Both the position numbers and the translations under genes were made by a program. Source: an uncultured Planctomycetaceae bacterium (GTDB lineage Bacteria; Planctomycetota; Planctomycetia; Planctomycetales; Planctomycetaceae). Taken from it: a stretch of DNA of 64,000 bases. The stretch spans positions 1 through 64,000 of the forward strand of contig CALFSX010000115.1 of NCBI GenBank assembly GCA_937916515.1. The letters are read 5' to 3'. Under the pieces are notes generated by a model. That model made no database searches, was not told the origin of the DNA, and saw nothing but the letters and a program-made list of their open reading frames with translations. The stretch's first letter is position 1. Each line of letters begins with the position of its first letter. This document shows, in pieces, positions 8,211 through 63,129 of the stretch.

Positions 8211-8319
8211 GATCACGGTGCGCATGTTGCCCGTAGCGACAACGGAGCGGCTCGGCGATTGGAGCGTCCCATGTCTTGCAGCCCACCACGCCACCGGGTC
8301 AAGGGCGAAGCCCTTGTTG
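8211..8319 (+). repeat. R1 dispersed repeat, copy 1
   Basis: This copy carries the R1 core: GTAGCGACAACGGAGCGGCT, then CACGCCACCGGGTCAAGGGC and the terminal hairpin CAAGGGCGAAGCCCTTG. The orientation is the same as the tandem array at 34281-34675. It lies in the gap 8039-8571 between divergently transcribed genes. The rest of that gap shows nothing else I can name. Confidence 0.85.
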
Positions 8320-12760: not shown

Positions 12761-12905
12761 GAGCAGATCTTGGCGGGAATAGTGGTATGGGGCACAAACA
12801 GAAACAGAGCTGCATCGGCTGTTGAGCCGGCAGTGTCGCATTATCGTGGGATTTGGCGATGATGTACAGTGTCGAACAAGGGCCGACACTTTGCGGCTTA
12901 AGTCT

Positions 12906-13140
12906 AACAAGGGCTTCGCCCTTGACCCAGTGGCGTGGAGGGTGGGAAGACGTGGGGCGCTGGAATCGCCGAGCCGCTCCGTTGTCGCTACGAACAACAT
13001 GCGCGCATTGTGCGCGCATCATTTTGAGTAAGACTCTAACGAGGCCGTGCCTCAGACCATTTGAGCTGACGCTCAGAAGCGCGACTACGTCGCTCAGAAA
13101 ACCTGACTCAACATTCACAAGTTCGCGGCTTTAAGAAGTC
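12906..13140 (-). repeat. R1 plus R2 repeat, copy 2
   Basis: Inverted relative to copy 1. R1 begins with the hairpin AACAAGGGCTTCGCCCTTG and ends near 13033, followed directly by the R2 module (GAGGCCGTGCCTCAGACC, a GAGCTGACGCTC-like palindrome, and CGACTACGTCGCTC) to 13140. R2 is itself made of short palindromic units. The element fills most of the gap 12761-13163. It has produced a false N-terminal extension of the PQQ gene at 11351-12760. Confidence 0.85.
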
Positions 13141-28490: not shown

Positions 28491-30395
28491 ATGTCGTTTT
28501 CCAACCCCGCCGCATTAATCTGGGCCGCTTTGGCGGTACCCATTGTGATCTTCTATATCCTGAAGATCCGCATGCGCCGAGTTCCGGTTTCGACAACCAT
28601 GTTCTGGCAGCAGGTGTTCGACGAAAAAGCTCCTCGATCAATCTGGCAACAATTGCGACATCTGCTAAGCCTGTTACTGCAACTGTTGTTTTTGGCACTG
28701 CTTGTCTTTTCGCTGACAGACCCATTTTTCAACAGCGATGTGCGACAGCAGCGGCGTGTGATTGTGGTTGTGGATACATCCGCCAGCATGCAGGCAAAAC
28801 TAGAAGACGACACCACGCGATTGGATGCCGCAAAGCAGCAGATTCAAAAGATGATTCAGTCGCTGAAATCGCGTGACGAAATGGCAATTATCGTCGCAGG
28901 AAATCAGGCACACGTGGCGTGCGGTCTTACCAGCCATCAGCGTACCTTGCAAAACCACCTTGACAATATCAAAGCCACCGATGGTCCGACTCAGGTTGCC
29001 GACGCGGTTGAAGTTGGACGCCGATTACTGGCCGATCACGCAAAAGGAGAAGTTGTCGTCGTTAGCGATGGCTGCTTTACCGAAGCAGTCGGGATTGCCG
29101 CAGACCCGAAAGTCGTCTGGGCTCAAATTGGCGAGCCAGCAGACAATCTTGGCCTCACACGTTTCCAGGTACGACGCAGTCTACTGGATCCGATTGGTTT
29201 CCAGATTCTGGTTGAAGTATCCAACTTTAGCCAGACCAACGCCGACACCAGCCTGGACCTGAACTTCAATGGAGAACTTCTGGACGTCATCCCACTAAAG
29301 CTGGAACCGGGCGAAGTGTGGAGCCGAGTCTTCGAAAAGACGTCCACCGGCGGCGGCATTCTGTTAGCCGCCATTGCCGCAGAAGATCAACTTCCTGCCG
29401 ACAACGCTGCTCAAGCCATTCTTCCCGAACGCCTGCGAATTCCCGTCACGCTGGTCACCAATGGCAACTGGTTTCTGGAACGAGTACTTGCGGCAAACGA
29501 CGTTGTGGATTTAACCGTAACATCGACGATCCCCACAGAACTTCCCCCCGGTGGAGTGCTTGTGCTGCATCAGACCGTGCCGCAAAAAATTCCCGCCGGC
29601 AAAGTGTTTGTCGTTCAGCCCACAACGTCCACTGATCTATGGAAAACAGCAGGAGCAGTCACTGAACCGCTGGTCGCCAAACAGGACAAAGAAAACGATC
29701 TAATGAAGTACGTCCGGCTGGACAATGTGTTAATGCCGGAAGCCAACGTCCTGCAGCCCAAAACGGAATTCAAGGCTTTGGTGGAAGCCATTTCTGGTGA
29801 CCCGCTATACCTGCATTTTGCCCGCCCCGAAGGCGACGTCATCGTACTTTCGGTGAATCTGGATCAAGGCGATCTGCCGCTGCGAACGGCATTCCCAATC
29901 ATGCTCACAAATGCACTATCGTGGTTCGCCGATGGCAAGGGCGAACTGGTGGAAGCCATCGCAACAGGAATTGTGACAGACGTCAGCCTTCCGCCAGAAC
30001 TGCAATTACTGGCTCAACAAAACAGCCAGAAACTTGCTCTGATCGCACCGTCCGGCAGCAAAACATTAATCAACGTAGAAGCCTCCGTCGCCCGGATCGG
30101 CCCTTTGGCAGAAGCGGGCATCTGGACGCTGGGAACGCCGCTAACTGACGAACAACTGCAAGCCATCACTCAGGAAACAGCAGACGCACAAGCCGCCTTT
30201 CCGGAATTCAAAATCGCCTGCAACCTGAACAGCCCCTCCGAAAGTAATCTCAGGCCAACACAAGACATCATCCCTCAACAGGAAGCATTACAAGCCGGAT
30301 TCGGTGGACGCCCCATCTGGTTCTACCTGGTACTGGTGGGCTTTCTGCTAATCATGGTCGAATGGTTCCTGTTCCAACGGCGCTGGATCTCCTAA
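28491..30395 (+). CDS. BatA-like membrane protein with VWA domain
   Basis: The product is 634 residues. It begins with the BatA N-terminal pattern NPAALIWAALAVPIVIFYIL followed by a second helix (about 56-75). The VWA domain has an intact MIDAS motif DTSAS (Asp95, Ser97, Ser99), and the protein ends with a membrane helix (YLVLVGFLLIMVEWFLF). The VWA and central domains therefore lie outside the cytoplasm or in a membrane-linked complex assembled with MoxR. The TAA stop shares its last two bases with the start of an R1 repeat, so the repeat abuts the gene exactly. Confidence 0.88.
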   Translation: MSFSNPAALIWAALAVPIVIFYILKIRMRRVPVSTTMFWQQVFDEKAPRSIWQQLRHLLSLLLQLLFLALLVFSLTDPFFNSDVRQQRRVIVVVDTSASMQAKLEDDTTRLDAAKQQIQKMIQSLKSRDEMAIIVAGNQAHVACGLTSHQRTLQNHLDNIKATDGPTQVADAVEVGRRLLADHAKGEVVVVSDGCFTEAVGIAADPKVVWAQIGEPADNLGLTRFQVRRSLLDPIGFQILVEVSNFSQTNADTSLDLNFNGELLDVIPLKLEPGEVWSRVFEKTSTGGGILLAAIAAEDQLPADNAAQAILPERLRIPVTLVTNGNWFLERVLAANDVVDLTVTSTIPTELPPGGVLVLHQTVPQKIPAGKVFVVQPTTSTDLWKTAGAVTEPLVAKQDKENDLMKYVRLDNVLMPEANVLQPKTEFKALVEAISGDPLYLHFARPEGDVIVLSVNLDQGDLPLRTAFPIMLTNALSWFADGKGELVEAIATGIVTDVSLPPELQLLAQQNSQKLALIAPSGSKTLINVEASVARIGPLAEAGIWTLGTPLTDEQLQAITQETADAQAAFPEFKIACNLNSPSESNLRPTQDIIPQQEALQAGFGGRPIWFYLVLVGFLLIMVEWFLFQRRWIS

Positions 30396-30523
30396 CAAGG
30401 GCTTCGCCCTTGACCCGGTGGCGTGGATCGTCGCAAGACGTGGAACCTTCGAACCGCCGAGAGGCTCCGTTGTCGCTACGGCCTACATTCCCGCACCGTG
30501 CGCATCATTTTAAGTAAGACTCA
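30394..30523 (-). repeat. R1 repeat, copy 4
   Basis: It starts at the second base of the BatA stop codon with AACAAGGGCTTCGCCCTTG and runs to about 30523, ending ATCATTTTAAGTAAGACTC. A second R1 copy begins straight after it at 30524 in tandem (130 bp from the first) but is interrupted after 16 bases by the E element. Confidence 0.85.
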
Positions 30524-30539
30524 AACAAGGGCTTCGACC

Positions 30540-30886
30540 AACGCCTTGAAGAGTTTTGAAAAGCAAGAACACTGTTTGAACTAGAGAAGATGCAGTCATG
30601 CCGAGTGGGCTTCAGTCACGAAGTGACGTTAGGTAGTAGCCACGGGCGCGAGCCCGTGGTTTGCAAAAAGTCAGACGGAAAGTCCCGAAGGGACGGTAGG
30701 CGTATCATTTCGCGTTGTTGCCTGTCGTCCCTTCAGGACTGAAAACGACTGTCGAATGCTGTTCCACGGGCTCGCGCCCGTGGCTATCACCTACCGTCAC
30801 TTCGTGACTTAACCGCATCCAAACTCCAGCCTCGAACTTTCGCTCTATCTCACTGTTTTCCCACTCAAAATTCCCTTCACGGCGTT
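30540..30886. repeat. E element copy 1: 347-bp MITE-like or REPIN-like insertion
   Basis: It is bounded by imperfect inverted ends: AACGCCTTGAAGAGTTTTGA at the left and, reading inward on the other strand, AACGCCGTGAAGGGAATTTT at the right. The interior is a large imperfect palindrome with two identical hairpins, CCACGGGC-loop-GCCCGTGG at 30640-30659 and 30764-30783 in opposite orientation. Smaller hairpins (GTCACGAAGTGAC, GTCCCGAAGGGAC) surround them. GTAG abuts the first hairpin (30636-30639) and CTAC lies seven bases from the second. Both outer flanks are pieces of the R1 hairpin, so it sits inside an R1. It contains no gene. A second, inverted copy is at 62735-63058. Confidence 0.85.
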
Positions 30887-30914
30887 GGGCCATGCCCTTG
30901 TAAGGGGCGACGCT

Positions 30915-33861: not shown

Positions 33862-34280
33862 GTAACCTCTTCAGTTCGAGGTGTGCCAGACGCAAGGACT
33901 GTGTCTGGCGAAGGTGGGAATTATTCGGTGGGGAAAATTGCAGGTAACAAACGTCAAGATGACCCGCTGCATCCTGTTTATCTTATCGACGCGATCCAGT
34001 GCCGCGACCACACCCAATACGCACTTGCTGATAAACCTGCAGCAGCTTGAATCGGGACTTTCTGGTACAGGGAAAGGTTAAGCTGCAAATCAAAGGCCGT
34101 CAAGAAGATACGTCATCCAGACACCACTCATCCTGAAATCGCCGCAAGTCTGCCCCCAAAGCGACGTTTTTGAGGCTCAGAAACACTGTTTCAAGGTTTC
34201 CCCCTGCAGAAAACCACTCCCCAACGCGGTCAGCAAGGTTCCTCAGCAGCCTGATATCACGGGTTTCTTGCCCTGCTCAC
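33862..34280. other. Intergenic region upstream of the DUF1501 gene
   Basis: About 420 bp upstream of the minus-strand DUF1501 gene. No coding frame or hairpin stands out before the tandem R1 array begins at 34281. Confidence 0.4.
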
Positions 34281-34675
34281 AAAGATGCACGCACGGCGCC
34301 CGCATCATTGCTCGTAGCGATAACAGAGCGGCTCGGCGATTGGAACATTCCACGTCCGCTCGCGTACCACGCCACCGGGGCAAGGGCGAAGCCCTTGTTG
34401 AAAGTCTTACTCATAAAGATGCACGCACGGCGCCCGCACCATTGCTCGTAGCGACAACGGAGCGGCTCGGCGACTGGAACTTTCCACGTCTTCTCGCGTA
34501 CCACGCCACCGGGGCAACGGCGAAGCCCTTGTTGAAAGTCTTACTCGTAAAGATGCACGCACGGCGCCCGCATCATTGCTCGTAGCGACAACGGAGCGGC
34601 TCGGCGATTGGAACTTTCCACGTCCGCTCACGTACCACGCCACCGGGTCAAGGGCGAAGCCCTTGTTGAAGAAGG
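34281..34675 (+). repeat. Tandem array of three R1 units, exact 134-bp period
   Basis: Three direct copies start with AAAGATGCACGCACGGCGCC at 34281, 34415 and 34549, a period of exactly 134 bp. Each unit has the same order: the start segment, TCGTAGCGAYAACRGAGCGG, a variable TTCCACGT region, CCACGCCACCGGGKCAA and the hairpin CAAGGGCGAAGCCCTTG, joined by TTGAAAGTCTTACTC. The third unit lacks the final spacer. The copies differ by scattered substitutions, so the array is not freshly duplicated. It ends two bases before the stop of the minus-strand carbon-nitrogen hydrolase gene. Confidence 0.92.
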
Positions 34676-34677
34676 TG

Positions 34678-37484: not shown

Positions 37485-37688
37485 AAAGAAAGCACTAAAA
37501 AGAACATCCACCCTCATGTAGACAACTGGGAATTCTGGGCGATTACAAAAGCCCAGGGCGAAATTCTACGTTACAGCGTGCTTCGCGATATTAGAGACTT
37601 GGTTCCCGATTGGCCGTTTGTTCGTGACTCTGTGGGTGTGGCGTACGTTGTGACTGCGCGGCTCAATTTGTGGAACTACCTCACATAG
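37485..37688 (+). pseudogene. Possible coding remnant without a start codon
   Basis: An open frame of 67 codons ends at TAG 37686-37688. The last 56 codons from 37521 read like real protein, with Trp, Tyr and aliphatic residues in a plausible mix (for example NWEFWAITKAQG, RDLVPDWPF, GVAYVVTARLNLW). No ATG, GTG or TTG with a ribosome binding site begins it, and upstream it runs into the GTAG hairpin. It overlaps the RAYT 3' end by 13 bases. I do not recognise the family. It may be the tail of a gene broken by the transposase region, or an accidental frame. Confidence 0.25.
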
Positions 37689-38434
37689 TCGACCCAGAAG
37701 GCAGGCGACATGTCCAGCCGTTGCAGAATCCCGGATAGGTGTTTAGGGATCGCTCCTCGCTTGCCGTGTTCGATGCGTTTGTCGCGAGCATCCGGTGTGG
37801 AAACTTCGTCGGCAGTTTTCGCGTCGACAATGCGATCCTGAGCACTCGTGAAATCGCTTGTTTCCGGAGTCTTCGCAATGTTTGCTCGCACAGGGTTCAG
37901 GTCGACGTTTTGCATGCAGGCCAGCAGCGCCGCTTCATCGGCTAAAATCTGAGCCTTGAAACGTCCTTCCAAAAATCGGCCCGTGCATTCATCCTGTTTG
38001 TTGCTTTCCCGAGCCACCTTTTCACACAAAAATCGCATGAACCACGAAATGCTGCTCAGTCGACTGCGGCGTCCTTTGAGTTGTTGCTTGTCGTTTTTGA
38101 TGGAGTTGATTTCGAACTCGGTGGGTTCTGCGGCATTGCCGTCTTTGCCCTTGCGAAGCGGAAACAACGCCCACCACTTTGCCGCCACTTCTTCGTCGGA
38201 CCACCCAGCCACAACGTCCGGGCGACTGCATAGAATACAGTGAATGTGATTGCTCATCACACTATAGCCGAGAACTTCAACACCCATAACTCCGGCGAGA
38301 AATTCCAAACGCTGACGAATGAGTTCACGACGATGTTCGTAGTCGGTCCCCATCAGCGGATCCTGGCCACAAAGAAACGCTCGTCGCACACAGCGATTCA
38401 CGCAATGCACCACCTGAACTTCACAATCCGCCAA
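37676..38434 (-). CDS. RAYT/IS200-like Y1 transposase homologue with Tyr-to-Asn change at the predicted catalytic site
   Basis: The product is 252 residues of the REP-associated tyrosine transposase family. It contains the HUH motif HIH (His63, His65) in SVMSNHIHCIL and the downstream block ALLACMQNVDLNPVRANIAK. In other members this block reads YVDLNPxRA or YIxxNPV, and its Tyr forms the covalent link to DNA (Tyr115 in E. coli TnpA-REP, by my alignment). Here that position is Asn176 (AAC codon, one base from TAC). The C-terminus also ends at TAG after WVDYVR, while the same frame stays open for about 35 further codons, so the end may be truncated. It is probably a domesticated or inactive copy. 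Confidence 0.8.
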   Translation of the reverse strand: MADCEVQVVHCVNRCVRRAFLCGQDPLMGTDYEHRRELIRQRLEFLAGVMGVEVLGYSVMSNHIHCILCSRPDVVAGWSDEEVAAKWWALFPLRKGKDGNAAEPTEFEINSIKNDKQQLKGRRSRLSSISWFMRFLCEKVARESNKQDECTGRFLEGRFKAQILADEAALLACMQNVDLNPVRANIAKTPETSDFTSAQDRIVDAKTADEVSTPDARDKRIEHGKRGAIPKHLSGILQRLDMSPAFWVDYVR

Positions 38435-49726: not shown

Positions 49727-49799
49727 CCGCAACGCCGCAGAAAATGGCTGATTCCACGCAGTCAGGCCCGCTGGATTGTTTTTTGATAACAGATACCCC

Positions 49800-50022
49800 A
49801 ACAAGGGCTTCGCCCTTGACCTGGTGGCGTGGTTGGCTGGAAGACATGGGACGTTCGAATCGCCGAGCCGCTCCGTTGTCGCTACCACCAACACGCGCAT
49901 CTTTTTGAGTCAGACTCTAACGAGGCTGTGCCTCAGACCATTTGAGCTGACGCTCAGAAACGCGACTACGTCGCTCTGAAAACTTGACTCAATGTGAACA
50001 AGTTCGCTGCTTTAAGAAGTCT
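49800..50022 (-). repeat. R1 plus R2 repeat, copy 5
   Basis: R1 begins with AACAAGGGCTTCGCCCTTG at 49800. R2 follows from about 49918 (CGAGGCTGTGCCTCAGACC, CGACTACGTCGCTCTG) and ends with TTAAGAAGTCT at 50022. It occupies most of the gap 49727-50172 between the prenyl synthase gene and the ABC ATPase gene, which are on the same strand. Together with copies 2 and 3 it defines the combined R1-R2 form. Confidence 0.87.
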
Positions 50023-54115: not shown

Positions 54116-54129
54116 TGCAGAATTCCTTA

Positions 54130-54236
54130 ACAAGGGCTTCGTCCTTGCCCCCGTGGCGTGGATCGCGGCACAACCTGGAACGTTCAAGACGCCGAGCCGC
54201 TCCGTTGTCGCTACGAAAATCATGCACGCGTCGCCG
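54130..54236 (-). repeat. R1 repeat, copy 6
   Basis: It begins with AACAAGGGCTTCGTCCTTG and contains GGCGTGGATCGCGGCACAACC and CGAGCCGCTCCGTTGTCGCT. R2 is missing. It lies only 15 bp upstream of the GTG start of the Tm-1-like gene, between it and the PVC haem gene. Confidence 0.85.
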
Positions 54237-54317
54237 ACAACACCGGCCCTGTGTCCAAACTCTTATGGACACACAACAATCAAATGGCGATTTGCGTTGT
54301 CGTAGTATTAAACAATG

Positions 54318-62620: not shown

Positions 62621-62734
62621 AAAGTCTTACTCAAAATGATGCGTATGATTCTCGTAGTAACAACGAAGCCGTTCGGCGACTAGAACATTTCACGTCTTGC
62701 CGCGATCCACACCACTGGGTCAAGGGCGAAACCC
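62621..62734 (+). repeat. R1 repeat, degenerate copy 8, interrupted by E copy 2
   Basis: It starts with AAAGTCTTACTCAAAATGATGC and ends with the hairpin half CAAGGGCGAAACCC at 62721-62734. The E element begins straight after it. The other half of the same R1 hairpin continues after E at 63059-63077. Several substitutions separate this copy from the consensus. It fills part of the gap 62375-63129. Confidence 0.8.
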
Positions 62735-63058
62735 AACGCGGTGAAGGGATTTTTGAGCGGGAAAACCGTGAGATAAAGCGAAAGATCGCAGGCTGGAGTT
62801 TGGATGCAGTTAAGTCACGAATTGACGGTAGGTGATAGCCACGGGCGCGAGCCCGTGGAACCGCATTCGACAGTCGTTTTCAGTCCTGAAGGGACGACAG
62901 GCAACAACGCGAAATGATACGCCTACCGTCCCTTCGGGACTTTCCGTCTGACTTTTTGCAAACCACTACCTAACGTCACTTCGTGACTGAAGCCCATTCG
63001 GCATGACTGCCTCTTCTACAGTTAAAACAGTGTTTTTGCTTTTCAAAACCTTTCACGG
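62735..63058. repeat. E element copy 2: 324-bp insertion in R1 with 14-bp direct repeats
   Basis: This is the inverted relative of the E element at 30540-30886, matching it along its whole length. One difference is directly visible: copy 2 lacks 20 bp (one CCACGGGC hairpin) present in copy 1. It keeps one hairpin, at 62839-62858. Ends are AACGCGGTGAAGGG at the left and, on the other strand at the right, CCGTGAAAGG. The same 14 bases, CAAGGGCGAAACCC, flank it on both sides (62721-62734 and 63059-63072), as expected from duplication of the target on insertion. It has no coding capacity. Confidence 0.87.
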
Positions 63059-63129
63059 CAAGGGCGAAACCCTTGTTAGTGTGGGATATTCAAGTTTACC
63101 GAACAAGTGCACAGAATAGCAGAGCGAAC

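Follow-up and report, generated by a model that had tools for sequence, protein, structure and literature searches.

What is the palindromic, gene-less repeat at 30540–30886 of the 64,000-nucleotide stretch of planctomycete DNA analysed here (the window), and which enzyme would recognise its hairpins? A first-pass annotation, made from the sequence alone, described it as REPIN-like, with two inverted hairpins, a GTAG foot and a RAYT-family gene in the same window. Our analysis upholds the kind of repeat, that is, inverted TAG-foot hairpins that occur genome-wide and resemble the substrate of a Y1 (HUH) enzyme, but not the family, which is not RAYT. The repeat, here element E, is probably a non-autonomous composite in which a gene-less pair of hairpin modules, of the type that flanks TnpA-Y1 subclass 1.2 genes, is enclosed by TIR-type arms with a target duplication.

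Anatomy and copies of element E

Copy 1 of E (30540..30886, plus strand, 347 bp), delimited by where homology stops among about 17 full copies and additional fragments genome-wide, has inverted termini and no coding capacity, and occupies the gap between two convergent genes, whose ends are at 30395 and 30915. Inverted arms, AACGCCTTGAAG...CTTCACGGCGTT, enclose a palindromic core. From the outside inwards, the arm is followed by hairpin A; 12 nt of spacer, the last four of them GTAG or ATAG, separate this from hairpin B, and 22–24 nt lie between B and hairpin C. Beyond a short centre the order is reversed, with C', B' and A' leading to the second arm. The left half module (A-TAG-B-C; 30612..30702, plus strand) comprises, all on the plus strand, hairpin A, GTCACGAAGTGAC (30615..30627), at −25 from B; the GTAG foot (30636..30639), directly 5' of B; hairpin B, CCACGGGC-GCGA-GCCCGTGG (30640..30659); and hairpin C, GTCCCGAAGGGAC (30682..30694), at +42 from B. 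The inverted right half module (C'-B'-A'; 30719..30811, minus strand) lies 16 nt away, and contains, on the minus strand, an imperfect hairpin C' (30727..30739), hairpin B' with the foot ATAG (30764..30783) and hairpin A' (30796..30808). All these features were identified in the sequence, B and B' also by a genome-wide count, and C' and A' also by the covariance model R1 described below. When folded, the core (201 nt; about 195 bp) forms a single long hairpin (−75 kcal/mol, z −12.2).

Hairpin B indeed occurs twice in inverted orientation, 104 bp apart, and the annotated GTAG and CTAC are both present; the foot directly abutting B' in copy 1 is, however, ATAG (CTAT on the plus strand), with CTAC a few nucleotides beyond. 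GTAG on one side and ATAG on the other is the arrangement in most copies of E. The initial description captured the B hairpins and was otherwise incomplete, E also having hairpins A and C, outer arms and duplicated tips.

Copy 2 (62735..63061, minus strand), directly upstream of a gene start, has a single B hairpin, as annotated; a deletion of exactly 20 bp has removed the second one, and this deletion recurs in the copies on contigs C9 and C94. Its intact half module (62811..62903, plus strand) scores 61.8 bits with R1, and the half that lacks hairpin B (62920..62990, minus strand) scores 35.6 bits.

The genome under study (G000; 8.33 Mb, 343 contigs) contains 37 occurrences of the hairpin B 20-mer, with the loop left free, against 0 for a reversed control pattern, and a DNA search with the E region recovered about 30 copies or fragments of E. 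Hairpin B has uniform surroundings in the copies displayed, the exceptions being one diverged relative and some forms that are fused or truncated. The annotation had treated rarity of the hairpin outside E as evidence against a REPIN, and such rarity is what we found: every copy inspected with its flanks lies within E or E-derived remains, and none is free-standing. Hairpin B is a part of E and not an independent REP-type repeat. In two copies, on contigs C151 (L130) and C213 (L131), a single A hairpin stands between the arms of E, and the junction is identical at both loci; these could be either empty sites or hairpin-to-hairpin deletions.

Tips and target duplication

Short palindromes, usually GGGC-NNN-GCCC, lie outside the arms of E. 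Their loops vary between copies and agree as direct repeats at both ends of the same copy in 13 of 13 classifiable cases, a concordance as high as which was obtained in 0 of 5000 permuted pairings (p <0.001). Copy 2 carries identical tips, GGGCGAAACCC, at 62724..62734 and 63062..63072; in copy 1, the left tip GGGCTTCGACC (30529..30539), assigned as a target-site duplicate by the direct-repeat match of tips across copies, and its partner GGGCCATGCCC (30887..30897) form a decayed pair. Because terminal hairpins belonging to E itself would be inverted, directly repeated tips point to a duplicated target. Comparison of occupied sites thus provides statistical support for insertion of E with duplication of a palindromic target of about 9–11 bp, the exact length between these limits being ambiguous, since G and C are common to target and tips.

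Many targets of E are the tips of a second repeat family (CAAGGGCTTCGCCCTTGACCC..GTGGCGTGG...), which occurs in the window at 8219-8313, 12904-13015, 30392-30503, 34276-34677 (three tandem 134-bp copies), 49798-49909, 54127-54238 and 62640-62734. The tips AACGCCGTGAAG of E are also common to other gene-less elements of this genome with different cores: L159 (C278:76591-76687), L158 (C311), L152 (C153:690-1065), L151 (C144) and L156 (C297). The hairpins of the C153 element resemble those around the Y1 gene on contig C216 discussed below. In G000 and seven congeners, the search for an autonomous element with E tips returned only gene-less elements or unrelated neighbours. Two candidate relationships of the ends were set aside. 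An affinity to integron attC-like ends (GCCCAAC...GTTGGGC) was dropped, as the copies lie dispersed between ordinary genes and have simple inverted repeats for ends. An IS4/IS231-type parent, prompted by the GGG-N5-CCC targets and the ~10-bp duplications, is unproven: the ends of IS231 are CAT (PMC2266710), and E lacks CAT ends.

The three-hairpin module flanks subclass 1.2 transposase genes

The lead came from a congener (G005), in which GTAG and the same hairpin stem lie upstream of a Y1 gene, between A- and C-type hairpins. The protein encoded by genes of this type is IS200-like by NCBIfam and Pfam, and an alignment of eight members of the family shows invariant HUH and Y---Q--HH motifs, the latter being the signature given for TnpA-Y1 subclass 1.2 (Quentin 2018, PMC6006769). 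Across 110 loci of the family, TAG directly precedes 79 flank hairpins (GTAG 36, TTAG 25, ATAG 15, CTAG 3), compared with 0.05 per shuffle set, and small hairpins in their vicinity are most frequent at −25 and +42. In relatives, the genes are flanked by inverted modules of the form A-25nt-[TAG]B-42nt-C, and these offsets of A and C are those found in E. In planctomycete loci, modules are common, and they are also present at some loci labelled as Verrucomicrobia, Acidobacteria or other groups, many of these non-planctomycete loci being MAGs with possibly contaminated taxon labels; most Bacteroidetes loci of the family are without modules. In G000, a single gene of the subclass 1.2 type was found (C216, 9796-10137; L033), which shares 28% identity with the query and encodes the Y---Q--HH motif; it is flanked by CCACCGGC-NNNN-GCCGGTGG hairpins that are similar to those of E, yet different. 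No close cognate gene was found in this 343-contig assembly.

The covariance model R1 was trained on 14 modules from gene flanks, all of them in other genomes; its training stems were perfect by selection, so that base-pair counts are descriptive. R1 matches both halves of E copy 1 (75.7 bits, E 3.8e-17, left; 70 bits, E 1e-15, right), and the best match elsewhere in the window, 13.9 bits, is noise. Among 96 related genomes, the module is present in 43 of 44 with a subclass 1.2 gene and in 16 of 52 without a detected one (p 1e-12); where a RAYT is present, the odds ratio for module and subclass 1.2 gene is ~97 (p 1e-10). These p-values are optimistic because the genomes are related and not phylogenetically independent, and the per-genome module counts are those among the matches listed (44 at most). 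Given the order and spacing shared with gene flanks, the R1 matches and the co-occurrence, E is, to judge from its sequence, a gene-less A-B-C/C'-B'-A' pair like many dispersed pairs in relatives.

RAYTs of the genome have other hairpins

The window gene proposed as a RAYT partner (37676..38434, minus strand) makes a poor candidate. It is a divergent RAYT-like gene that matches NF047646 with 30.4 bits against a cut-off of 80, it has Asn where a paralogue on C151 has Tyr at the catalytic position, and no E hairpin was found within 1 kb of it. The genuine RAYTs of the genome, identified by NF047646 matches on C171 and C131, are accompanied by the REPs GTAG-GGCCGGT..ACCGGCC and GTAG-GGTGGGC..GCCCACC, and no CCACGGGC hairpins occur in their flanks. 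Two related genomes, G001 and G004, encode RAYTs above the cut-off, and no E-type TAG-hairpin was found in either. The suggested co-occurrence with RAYT genes disappears once the subclass 1.2 gene is considered: among genomes without that gene, the odds ratio between module and RAYT is 0.94 (p 1.0).

Gene-less pairs nested in different arms

Among the matches listed, relatives contain 32 facing module pairs with bimodal spacing: in 26, the modules are 3–62 nt apart, and in the other 6, 464–601 nt, the size of the gene. One genome (G075) has seven gene-less pair elements that are 88–99% identical, with related ones in G013; the homology in G075 extends about 20 bp beyond A, into arms TTTTGAAGTTGCGCACTTT that are shared with G013 and differ from those of E. 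Duplications of 8 bp, with at most one mismatch, bound 9 of the 12 G013/G075 elements. None of the outer arms tested was found around gene-bearing units, and G071 contains diverged hairpin pairs without such arms. The occurrence of different outer repeats with 8-bp duplications in two other genera makes it probable that conventional TIR elements carry the pairs; no transposase was identified for the outer arms AACGCCGTGAAGG and TTTTGAAGTTGCGCACTTT.

When copies of E with its two arm types are compared, the arms diverge by 19% and the core spacers by 5%; arm divergence overall is ~15–19%, and that of the core spacers ~5%. Core and arm divergence are weakly correlated (Mantel r 0.24, p 0.08). 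This gap could be due to constraint, to conversion or to separate movement of the core.

Origin and spread of E

We suggest that the core of E descends from the ends of IS200-like subclass 1.2 Y1 transposase gene units of planctomycetes, and that it would presumably be recognised in single-stranded form by an enzyme of this type. To our knowledge, Y1 transposases make no target duplications; dispersal of whole E, with its duplications, is therefore most likely to proceed by cut-and-paste through some TIR-type transposase. We infer in this way both the mobility of E, past or current, and the binding of the module by a Y1 enzyme. Several results weigh against this explanation: the failure to find a close enzyme gene in G000 or a transposase for the outer arms, the absence of the tested arms around gene-bearing units, the 16 genomes with the module and no detected gene, and the unequal divergence of core and arms.

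The most serious alternative, although we rate it as rather unlikely, is that some DDE transposase moves E as an ordinary TIR MITE, with the hairpins as passive cargo, the remnant of a Y1 element that inserted once and has no continuing role. Homology that stops at the outer arms, the target duplications both in E and in the differently armed G013/G075 elements, and the failure to find a close subclass 1.2 gene in G000 all fit this explanation. It accounts less readily for a core that is more uniform than the arms and only weakly correlated with them in divergence, for the same nesting with two different arm types, and for the armless pairs of G071.

Mobilisation of E as a REPIN by a RAYT (class 2 TnpA-REP) is improbable, and we reject it on the evidence of the RAYT flanks and the conditional association, although the hairpins are inverted, one has an abutting GTAG and RAYT genes are present in the genome. 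Apart from the different REPs that these RAYTs own, the lack of free-standing hairpins and the ~9–11-bp duplications also speak against it. Maintenance of the hairpins as transcription terminators or RNA-stability elements, spread by recombination only, is hardly credible: the hairpin is strong and the genes around copy 1 are convergent, but copy 2 is located just upstream of a gene start, and target duplications with dispersal to unrelated loci indicate insertion.

Comparison with known systems

E resembles REPIN/RAYT systems (Bertels and Rainey 2011, PMC3116915; Di Nocera 2013, PMC3733652) in that two inverted hairpins, in most copies with GTAG before one and ATAG before the other, form one large hairpin and in being dispersed, gene-less and linked to a Y1 (HUH) transposase; it differs in its three hairpins per half at fixed spacing, in a linked gene that is IS200-like subclass 1.2 and not RAYT, and in being nested within TIR arms with target duplications. 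The protein associated with the module in relatives has the HUH and Y---Q--HH motifs of subclass 1.2, a group described as generally without typical terminal structures and as found mostly in Cyanobacteria and Bacteroidetes (Quentin 2018, PMC6006769), whereas among the planctomycete members an inverted trio of hairpins is conserved, and there are gene-less derivatives. TIRtrons/TIRYT (Di Nocera 2013, PMC3733652) likewise combine Y1 genes with inverted-repeat flanks and are also found as repeat families; they belong mostly to subclass 2.1 with a GGGGWSAS motif (Quentin 2018, PMC6006769), in contrast to the TAG-hairpin trio of the E module. MITEs share with E the lack of genes, inverted termini, a duplicated target and many copies, but E holds a nested Y1-type hairpin module, and its parent transposase was not identified. 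PATEs (for example, in Haloquadratum) are gene-less, non-autonomous IS200/IS605 derivatives that keep the hairpin ends of the Y1 element. From PATEs as generally described, E differs in its symmetry, with two inverted halves enclosed by TIR arms, and in its target duplications.

We found no description of the three-hairpin module in the literature consulted. Tyrosine transposase genes with flanking repeats had already been noted in R. baltica (Di Nocera 2013, PMC3733652), so that the novelty of the module is that of a variant. The module would provide a candidate DNA substrate for a transposase group that the literature we found describes as lacking one, and the enzyme-substrate pair is directly testable; it would also explain an abundant class of palindromic repeats of planctomycetes. 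Nesting of hairpin pairs in TIR elements is seen in separate genera. More tentatively, and with somewhat less than even confidence, we propose that subclass 1.2 Y1 enzymes might constitute a hairpin-mobilising system of their own, the third after IS200/IS605 and RAYT/REP, with fixed three-hairpin ends and inverted gene-less pairs that repeatedly nest in TIR elements and so have two modes of spread.

As a separate observation, gene-less hairpin pairs form an array ahead of a Y1 gene in G004 (L148, C1:6138200-6140400), and gene and array adjoin apparent restriction-modification genes.
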